A DNA stretch of 64,000 nt from Cyanobacteria bacterium FACHB-63. GTDB lineage: Bacteria; Cyanobacteriota; Cyanobacteriia; Leptolyngbyales; Leptolyngbyaceae. Below, piece after piece: positions 32,091 to 33,997 of the stretch. The notes beneath the pieces were generated by a model, which saw only the letters and a list, made by a program, of their open reading frames with translations, was not told where the DNA came from and did not search any database. The stretch lies in contig JACJNX010000020.1 in the NCBI GenBank assembly GCA_014695255.1, forward strand, positions 1 to 64,000. The letters are read 5' to 3'. Within the stretch, counting starts at the first letter, position 1. Each line of letters opens with the position of its first letter. The translations under genes were made by a program, and so were the position numbers.

Positions 32091-32417
32091 ATGCCTCACA
32101 AAATGTCTCAAAAACCTCAAAAAGACTACCGCTCTAATTACCGCTACCGCGAAGACGCACCCCGAACGACCCTGACTCGGTTGATTGAACAAGACGCTCC
32201 ACTCTTCTCTCACAGTCAACTGGTGCTAATGTACGGATTCTTCCAGGCGGAAATGGCCCCCCAAGCCAATCAAGGCGTGGCTTCCTGGATTAAAGAATGC
32301 GTTCGACAATATGGATTACCGAGCCTTGTCCGGTTTGATTCGCACCGTCGCGCTCAGATTTTCCGACGAGATCAGTTTCAACCTTGGCTCGAACCCTTGA
32401 TGGATCAAGCGTGTTAA
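32091..32417 (+). CDS. Small hypothetical protein
   Basis: 108 residues, basic and soluble. ATG at 32091 follows GTAAGGAG with good spacing. Sequence features: a polar N-terminus (QKPQKDYRSNYRYRED), LTRLIEQDAPLFSHSQLVLMYGF, and a C-terminal part KECVRQYGLPSLVRFDSH with RRAQIFRRDQFQPWL. No domain recognised. Codon use and ribosome site indicate a real gene. Confidence 0.7.
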   Translation: MPHKMSQKPQKDYRSNYRYREDAPRTTLTRLIEQDAPLFSHSQLVLMYGFFQAEMAPQANQGVASWIKECVRQYGLPSLVRFDSHRRAQIFRRDQFQPWLEPLMDQAC

Positions 32418-32580
32418 AAATTTAGAACGCAAGTTGTTAGCGCTACATCAGCTTGGGAACGCGAACTATGGATCGATAAAAGAAGCTAACAACCGAGTTT
32501 CTGAAATTTGCACAATTTGGCACTTTTAAGCACGATCGAATCCGCTAGAGTGGGCGATGAGATCTTTGCGGTGCTGGATT

Positions 32581-33843
32581 ATGCCGAACTACGACCTTCT
32601 GCTGCGTAACTGTCAGCTCCTTCGCACTCCCGATGTTTCTGAACGAGTGGATATTGCGATTCAGGCAGGTGAGATTGTGGAGATTGCCCCTCACCTTGAT
32701 GCAACAGCGGAGATAGAACTAGAAATCCAAGGCTGTCTAGTCAGTCCTCCGTTTGTCGAATCGCATATTCACTTAGACTCTGCACTCACGGCAGGGGAAC
32801 CACGCTGGAATCAGAGCGGGACACTGTTTGAGGGCATCGAGATCTGGCGAGAACGTAAACAAAATCTCTCGCTGGAAGACGTGAGACAAAGAGCGATCGA
32901 GACGCTGAAACAACAGGCGTTGCAGGGGGTTCTTTTTGTGCGGAGTCACGCCGATGTCAGTGAGCAAAGTTTGACTGCGCTGAAAGCGCTGCTTGAAGTC
33001 CGCGACGAAGTGAAAGATTGGATCACGCTGCAAGTCGTCGCGTTTCCGCAGGATGGAATTTACGGCGGCGCAAAGAACGATGAATTAATGGAAGAAGCGA
33101 TTCGGTTGGGAGCGGATGTGGTTGGCGGCATTCCCCACTACGAACTGACTCGCGAGGATGGGGTGCGATCGGTCAATCGCATCTTTGAGCTGGCGGAGAA
33201 GTACGATCGCCTAATCGATATTCACTGTGATGAAATTGATGACGATCAATCCCGCTTTCTAGAAGTGGTTGCTGCCTGCGCCATTCGTACTGAAATGGGG
33301 TCAAAAGTCACCGCAAGCCACACGACTGCATTCGGCTCTTATAACAATGCTTATGCGTTTAAGCTGCTTGGATTTCTCAGACGTACTCAGCTTAATTTCA
33401 TCGCGAATCCTCTGATCAATATCACGCTGCAAGGTCGGACAGACACTTATCCCAAACGGCGCGGTGTGACGCGAGTGAAAGAACTGTGGCAACAAGGCAT
33501 GAATGTGAGCTTAGGGCATGATTGCGTTCAAGATCCTTGGTACTCACTCGGTACAGGCAATATGCTCGATGTGGCATCAATGGCAATTCATGTTTGTCAA
33601 ATGACCGGAACGACTGAGATTGACGCTTGTTACAACATGGTGACTTGGGGCGGGGCGAAAACCTTGAATGTTCAAGATCAATATGGTGTTGAAGTGGGGA
33701 AACCTGCGAACTTGATTGTGTTGGATGCGATCGATCGATATGATGCCATTCGCCGACGCGCTACAGTGCGGTATGTGATTTCTCAAGGTAAACTCCTAGC
33801 GCAAACGGAACCGCCGAAACCAAAGTGGCGCGGAAATATTTAG
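32581..33843 (+). CDS. CodA-family deaminase, probably 5-methylcytosine/cytosine-like substrate
   Basis: 420 residues, close to E. coli cytosine deaminase CodA throughout: metal site ESHIHLDSALTAG (His62, His64), VAFPQDGI, DIHCDEIDDDQSRF (His215, Glu218), ASHTTA (His247) and SLGHDCVQDPWYSLG with metal Asp314. CodA has GHDD at this last site; here the second Asp is Cys315. In CodA this residue (Asp314) is the specificity residue, and homologues lacking it were reported as 5-methylcytosine deaminases. So the product likely deaminates a pyrimidine, perhaps 5-methylcytosine to thymine. ATG at 32581 chosen over 32557 by fit to the family. A 50-residue membrane protein gene follows one base after the stop. 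Confidence 0.88.
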   Translation: MPNYDLLLRNCQLLRTPDVSERVDIAIQAGEIVEIAPHLDATAEIELEIQGCLVSPPFVESHIHLDSALTAGEPRWNQSGTLFEGIEIWRERKQNLSLEDVRQRAIETLKQQALQGVLFVRSHADVSEQSLTALKALLEVRDEVKDWITLQVVAFPQDGIYGGAKNDELMEEAIRLGADVVGGIPHYELTREDGVRSVNRIFELAEKYDRLIDIHCDEIDDDQSRFLEVVAACAIRTEMGSKVTASHTTAFGSYNNAYAFKLLGFLRRTQLNFIANPLINITLQGRTDTYPKRRGVTRVKELWQQGMNVSLGHDCVQDPWYSLGTGNMLDVASMAIHVCQMTGTTEIDACYNMVTWGGAKTLNVQDQYGVEVGKPANLIVLDAIDRYDAIRRRATVRYVISQGKLLAQTEPPKPKWRGNI

Positions 33844-33844
33844 C

Positions 33845-33997
33845 ATGAACGATGAGGTTGTTTCATTTCTCCTAGGTGCAGGTCTATTGATTCTGTACTT
33901 AGTCTTTTCTGCATTCACCGAAATGGGGACTAAGAATCCGTGGAAGACCGATGCCTCGGAAAAGTCTTCACTAGATAAGCAAACACCGCCAGATTGA
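33845..33997 (+). CDS. Small single-span membrane protein, 50 residues
   Basis: ATG at 33845, one base after the deaminase stop; stop TGA at 33995-33997. MNDEVVSFLLGAGLLILYLV begins a single hydrophobic helix (about residues 5-24), followed by a polar tail (TEMGTKNPWKTDASEKSS). The composition is typical of small membrane proteins, and the position suggests translation coupled to the deaminase. No family recognised. It is below usual gene-calling length limits. Confidence 0.6.
   Translation: MNDEVVSFLLGAGLLILYLVFSAFTEMGTKNPWKTDASEKSSLDKQTPPD

Follow-up and report, generated by a model that had tools for sequence, protein, structure and literature searches.

The deaminase gene in the window (the whole 64,000-nucleotide stretch of DNA that was analysed) encodes, by homology and profile match, a new member of the known CodA family, with a cysteine at the position of Asp314 of E. 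coli CodA. Alignment of relatives indicates that this cysteine is the rule in the cyanobacterial clade rather than a peculiarity of the window enzyme, and it is probably the ancestral state of the site. The enzyme probably serves cytosine salvage, as a metal-dependent deaminase that converts cytosine to uracil and is likely to tolerate 5-substituted cytosines, whereas a dedicated role in turning 5-methylcytosine into thymine is not supported.

The positions of the gene and its active site residues are collected in Table 1. An alternative start codon, the ATG at 32581, gives a protein of 420 residues and fits the homologues better than the ATG at 32557; the cysteine is residue 315 when counted from the former and residue 323 from the latter. 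CodA numbering is used throughout, and the residue roles are those established for CodA, with the HIH motif (His61 and His63) as metal ligands and Gln156 in substrate binding. In the alignment to CodA, the window deaminase has counterparts of His61, His63, Gln156, His214, Glu217, His246, Asp313 and Trp319, and Gln occupies position 316. Translation of the plus strand reproduced exactly the GHDCVQDPW that the first-pass annotation had placed at 33514-33540. The aligned GHDDVFDPW of E. coli CodA could be seen in the PDB sequence, and the metal ligands (equivalents of His61, His63, His214 and others) are kept, as had been said.

Table 1. Features of the window deaminase gene; residue numbers are counted from the ATG at 32581
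Feature	Position	Strand	Basis
CodA-family (amidohydrolase superfamily) deaminase gene	32557..33843	+	428-aa open frame from first ATG; homology and profiles
HIH metal-ligand motif (His61 and His63 equivalents; residues 62 and 64)	32764..32772	+	sequence
VAFPQ motif; substrate-binding Gln156 equivalent is residue 157 (33049-33051)	33037..33051	+	alignment
HCDE motif; His214 and Glu217 equivalents are residues 215 and 218	33223..33234	+	alignment
His246 equivalent (residue 247)	33319..33321	+	alignment
Motif GHDCVQDPW	33514..33540	+	translation of open frame
Asp313 equivalent	33520-33522	+	within GHDCVQDPW
Cys at CodA-314 position, codon TGC	33523-33525	+	alignment to CodA
Trp319 equivalent	33538-33540	+	within GHDCVQDPW

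The window protein scored above the cut-off of the NCBIfam cytosine deaminase model NF006685 (PRK09230; 578.3 bits, cut-off 483) and matched the E. coli CodA structure 1k6w in phmmer with an E-value of 8.9e-144, so that the homology to CodA is not a matter of chance. It was also above the cut-off of NF005748, likewise named cytosine deaminase (506.1 bits, cut-off 438), as was E. coli CodA (490.9 bits), and it carries the Pfam domains PF07969 and PF01979. The features of an NF006685-type enzyme found in the protein are the profile match and the catalytic residues; Asp at 314 is replaced by Cys. Since Kpn00632 of K. pneumoniae, with Ser at this site, also exceeds the NF006685 cut-off (602 bits), Asp314 is not defining for the profile. 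By sequence (phmmer), E. coli CodA and its mutants come closest among solved structures, followed by K. pneumoniae 4r7w. Identity is 55.2% to K-12 CodA over 411 aligned residues, 49.9% to Kpn00632 over 407 aligned residues and 45.3% to a Rhizobium homologue of the Cys type. A Foldseek search with the predicted model returned CodA structures as top matches (TM-score 0.86-0.87), with the Klebsiella 5-methylcytosine deaminase scoring equally, and the fold thus cannot tell the two apart. Mean pLDDT of the model was 78.8 and fell below 50 at residues 70-88, 280-294 and 317-324; because of these stretches, the last of which adjoins the cysteine, no pocket geometry was taken from it.

The window enzyme was compared with characterised relatives. 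It shares with E. coli CodA (1k6w, 3o7u) the metal ligands, Gln156, Glu217, His246, Asp313, Trp319 and the ANPL motif, and differs in having Cys for Asp314, Gln for Phe316 and Gly for Ala in the (A/G)IPH motif. Kpn00632 (4r7w, 4r85, 4r88) likewise lacks Asp at 314 and agrees with the window protein in Gln316 and in the glycine of GIPH, but its residue at 314 is Ser, and AQDS and SCPTES stand where the window protein has GHDC and ANPLIN. The alignment with characterised homologues that the first-pass annotation had called for divides: Gln316 and the GIPH glycine are those of Kpn00632, the ANPLIN and GHD segments those of CodA. With pocket motifs mixed in this way, the substrate is not decided by pocket residues alone. 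The primary study of 5-methylcytosine deaminases is said to include other members from Rhodobacter and Corynebacterium. Two premises of the first-pass annotation agree with the sources. In the available part of PMC6186785, CodA is described as hardly active on 5-methylcytosine and as gaining this activity when the discriminating Asp is mutated to Ala, in line with a discriminating role for Asp314. That same text gives Ser at this position in the Klebsiella 5-methylcytosine deaminase, and in the PDB the entries 4r7w and 4r88 are titled accordingly for the K. pneumoniae protein, so homologues lacking Asp314 have indeed been characterised as 5-methylcytosine deaminases. Given a residue other than Asp at 314, activity of the window enzyme on 5-methylcytosine in vitro is plausible.

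Cysteine was found at 314 in 80 of 80 cyanobacterial loci, these being the best 80 of 210 confirmed relatives and so biased towards close ones. The alignment tally is used for this count, as a strict text pattern, which variants escaped, recovered GHDC in 64 of 88 loci. The equivalents of His61, His63, Gln156, His214, Glu217, His246 and Asp313 are kept in all of these best 80 of 210, and Thr follows His246 in 79 of them, as in CodA. Of 386 cyanobacterial genomes drawn separately, 21, the window's own included, had a relative with an identity of about 46% or more; cysteine was present in 21 of 21 (L089-L109) and also in a broken remnant (L110). Two of these homologues (L108 and L109, in cyanobacterial genomes of about 3 Mb), 46-48% identical, group with the alpha/beta-proteobacterial Cys type, which suggests horizontal transfer. 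Elsewhere the site varies. Among 25 homologues picked by hand from listings of plasmid records, 23 were tallied once L128 and the AtzC row L129 had been set aside, with 12 Asp, 6 Cys and 5 Ser; L144, one of the Ser proteins, matches 4r7w without a difference across 412 residues. In an alignment of 125 loci tallied before this, with the window entered twice (L001 and L089), the counts were 107 Cys, 12 Asn, 4 Ser and 2 Asp; Asn belongs there to paralogues (among which L002 and L006 represent a single gene) and to L128 and L129, which are outgroup rows. The six alpha/beta-proteobacterial relatives of one branch (L121, L122, L125, L130, L145 and L146) all have Cys, with membership of NF005748 (PRK07572) shown for L121 and L122. 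They differ from the window enzyme in identity (43.9-46.8%), in Leu after His246 and in forming a separate clade, and ABC-transporter genes lie nearby in the four annotated loci.

The direction of change at position 314 was read from two trees. The first, of 53 rows with distant outgroups, did not resolve how the cyanobacterial, Asp and Ser rows relate to one another; on it the cyanobacterial rows took two changes, and a single change in 63% of the 200 trees of the bootstrap. Support for its root branch was weak (71/85), it had several long branches, and its bootstrap had not settled. The second, of 36 rows, was built without the column of the site itself; it also omits the outgroup rows, two Ser rows on long branches (L123 and L126), several of the cyanobacterial rows and some near-duplicates. 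Here the 17 cyanobacterial rows form one group (support 98/99) and the Asp and Ser rows another (98/92), in which the Ser rows sit inside the Asp rows; the proteobacterial Cys rows are the outgroup (100/100). Residue 314 then requires two changes, most simply Cys to Asp and subsequently Asp to Ser. Because the cyanobacterial enzymes fall outside the Asp and Ser clade of the 36-row tree, Cys is probably ancestral and Asp derived, provided that the tree is rooted on the proteobacterial Cys clade. The wording of the first-pass annotation, in which Cys stands in place of the specificity Asp, thereby probably has the order reversed; a loss of Asp by this enzyme is not supported, Cys being the likely older state. 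On the same tree, a clade of cyanobacterial and Ser rows was rejected (p-AU 0.035), as was one of cyanobacterial and Asp rows without Ser (p-AU 0.005). The presumed closeness to the characterised 5-methylcytosine deaminase is accordingly not supported, and Kpn00632 groups with the Asp types, not with cyanobacteria. A fuller scenario can be put forward tentatively: the ancestral CodA-type enzyme may have had Cys at this site and acted as a deaminase of cytosine and 5-methylcytosine alike, the Asp of the E. coli type being a later gate against 5-methylcytosine that was reopened as Ser in the Klebsiella type, with cyanobacteria retaining the ancestral dual specificity.

The window's genome, which is 99.98% complete, was searched for partner genes. 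One NCS1 transporter was identified as a cytosine permease by NCBIfam NF008241 (429.9 bits, cut-off 326), and uracil phosphoribosyltransferase gave two matches above cut-off and a third below. No match was found in this genome to C5 cytosine DNA methyltransferase (PF00145; the control was positive in 10 of 14 named genomes), thymidine kinase (PF00265) or PYNP_C (PF07831), the families taken as source and sink of 5-methylcytosine salvage, and none of five RutA matches was above cut-off. The genome also encodes a second cytosine deaminase by NCBIfam name (L002:1399-2739; G000 C129:118644-119795), which scores 687.6 bits with NF005759 (PRK07583). This paralogue shares the superfamily and product name with the window enzyme, but is only 26% identical and has Asn, Phe and Ser at positions 314, 319 and 156; similar matches of 26-31% identity recur across the 386-genome draw.

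In E. coli, codA adjoins codB, and the Kpn00632 gene adjoins codB and a PucR-type regulator, whereas the permease and deaminase genes are unlinked in the window's genome. When flanking ORFs were clustered in the best 80 of 210 relative loci, no widely conserved neighbourhood emerged. Aside from the deaminase, the most shared family, a putative protein kinase as judged from the start of its sequence, occurs in 17 of these 80, and four families from the upstream side of the window in just 7 to 8 each, the window counted. A 108-aa ORF upstream of the deaminase (32091-32417, plus strand) is present in 7 of the 80 relative loci and in L090 and L092, and gave no NCBIfam match at E 1e-20. Downstream, a 50-aa ORF with a hydrophobic stretch (33845-33997, plus strand) begins one base past the deaminase stop codon; its tblastn matches were confined to the genome's own loci (L001 and L089), with 0 of 80 relative loci. 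Of 9 phage records that match the deaminase, 4 cover 80% or more of the query, and the three best are Salmonella and Escherichia records at 57-60% identity; these were set aside as uninformative about the window enzyme.

The proposal that the enzyme is a dedicated 5-methylcytosine deaminase, feeding 5-methylcytosine from DNA or RNA breakdown to thymine with Cys as a specific adaptation, is quite unlikely. It draws on the lack of Asp at 314, a trait of the characterised K. pneumoniae enzyme too, on the Gln316 and GIPH glycine common to Kpn00632 and absent from E. coli CodA, and on the fixation of Cys in 80 of the best 80 of 210 relatives, which suggests functional constraint. Also in its favour, 14 of 21 gene-bearing genomes of the panel described below carry a PF00145 match. 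The rejected clade with Ser-type enzymes speaks against it, as do the missing PF00145 match and the RutA result in the window's own genome. Further evidence comes from a non-random panel of 21 gene-bearing genomes and 21 others (20 listed without a match and G014 with only a 28%-identical one). PF00145 is present in 14 of the 21 with the gene but in 20 of the 21 without (Fisher p 0.045, kinship uncorrected); C5 methyltransferases are thus rarer, not commoner, alongside the gene, opposite to the expectation for such a role. In all 42 panel genomes there was no thymidine kinase match and no PYNP_C match above cut-off, one weak sub-threshold match to the latter occurring in a genome without the deaminase gene. 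A thymine product would therefore have no salvage route in the panel genomes, as far as these families go, while uracil has one in the window's genome. The thymine salvage or DNA-turnover role offered by the first-pass annotation finds no support in the gene content of the window's genome, with no PF00145, thymidine kinase or PYNP domain and with a cytosine permease and phosphoribosyltransferases present.

Also unlikely is a chief activity on some other small N-heterocycle (isoguanine, isocytosine, creatinine or a xenobiotic), from which the cell would draw nitrogen. The family is promiscuous according to the accessible parts of PMC12828455, which describe CodA-cluster enzymes as such, and of PMC6186785. 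The ABC-transporter genes near the alpha-proteobacterial Cys-type homologues and the second annotated cytosine deaminase in this genome may be read the same way. A CodA homologue in Halobellus adjoins a creatininase gene; this Ser-type protein of Halobellus limi (L123:2956-5100) hints at creatinine metabolism in that branch. Against another substrate stand the Thr after His246 in 79 of the best 80 of 210 cyanobacterial relatives, as in CodA and unlike the Leu of the six proteobacterial Cys-type enzymes, the CodB-type permease in the window's genome, and the failure of any widely conserved neighbour to point to another substrate. That the gene is a decaying or non-functional copy is very improbable. 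Its occurrence across the phylum is patchy (21 of 386 genomes), and broken copies with in-frame stops occur in other genomes, three stops over two pieces in the remnants of G229 (L110) and one TGA in G039 (L101), so that the gene seems dispensable in some lineages. The window gene, however, is full length, without internal stop and with all catalytic residues present, and a 93%-identical relative exists.

Cytosine salvage, the preferred reading, rests on the NF006685 score, CodA as the nearest structures, the catalytic residues kept in all of the best 80 of 210 relatives, and the permease together with two phosphoribosyltransferases, as well as on the absence of thymidine kinase and PYNP_C matches from the window's genome. 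Counted against it were the lack of linkage between deaminase and permease genes, the absence of a widely conserved neighbourhood, the Kpn00632-like Gln316 and GIPH glycine, the second protein named cytosine deaminase, by which this genome could handle cytosine instead, and the 15 of 21 gene-bearing panel genomes without a PF02133 (NCS1) match above cut-off. Counted in its favour, PF02133 exceeded the cut-off in 6 of the 21 gene-bearing genomes and in 1 of the 21 others, a difference that is not significant (Fisher p 0.093, kinship uncorrected), and one further gene-bearing genome had a match below cut-off. In the available text of PMC12828455, the tested enzymes HBY46137 (annotated as cytosine deaminase) and MBE3094533 (not annotated) converted only one library compound, and the HBY46137 result indicates that annotation by itself is weak evidence of substrate. 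Among the papers listed in literature searches, no title concerned the cyanobacterial enzyme.

The analysis shows the sequence, residues, family and tree position of the window enzyme, the clade-wide cysteine and the partner genes; the substrates, rates and physiological role are inferred. Cytosine would be taken up through the CodB-type permease, whose gene lies at another place in the genome, and be hydrolysed by the window deaminase to uracil and ammonia, and uracil would be converted to UMP by uracil phosphoribosyltransferase. Analogous to CodA, the Asp313, His246 and Glu217 set would activate the metal-bound water, with Gln156 holding the ring carbonyl. The cysteine beside Asp313 probably leaves space at ring position 5, and 5-methylcytosine and 5-fluorocytosine are likely to be accepted as side substrates.

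If cyanobacterial enzymes accept 5-substituted cytosines, carriers of the gene may be sensitive to 5-fluorocytosine. Such sensitivity, if true, would hinder codA/5-fluorocytosine counter-selection, described for Synechocystis mutants in the accessible part of PMC7133116, in those cyanobacteria that bear the gene. The gene is otherwise an ordinary salvage gene, and the tree offers a testable sequence of changes at the specificity site 314.
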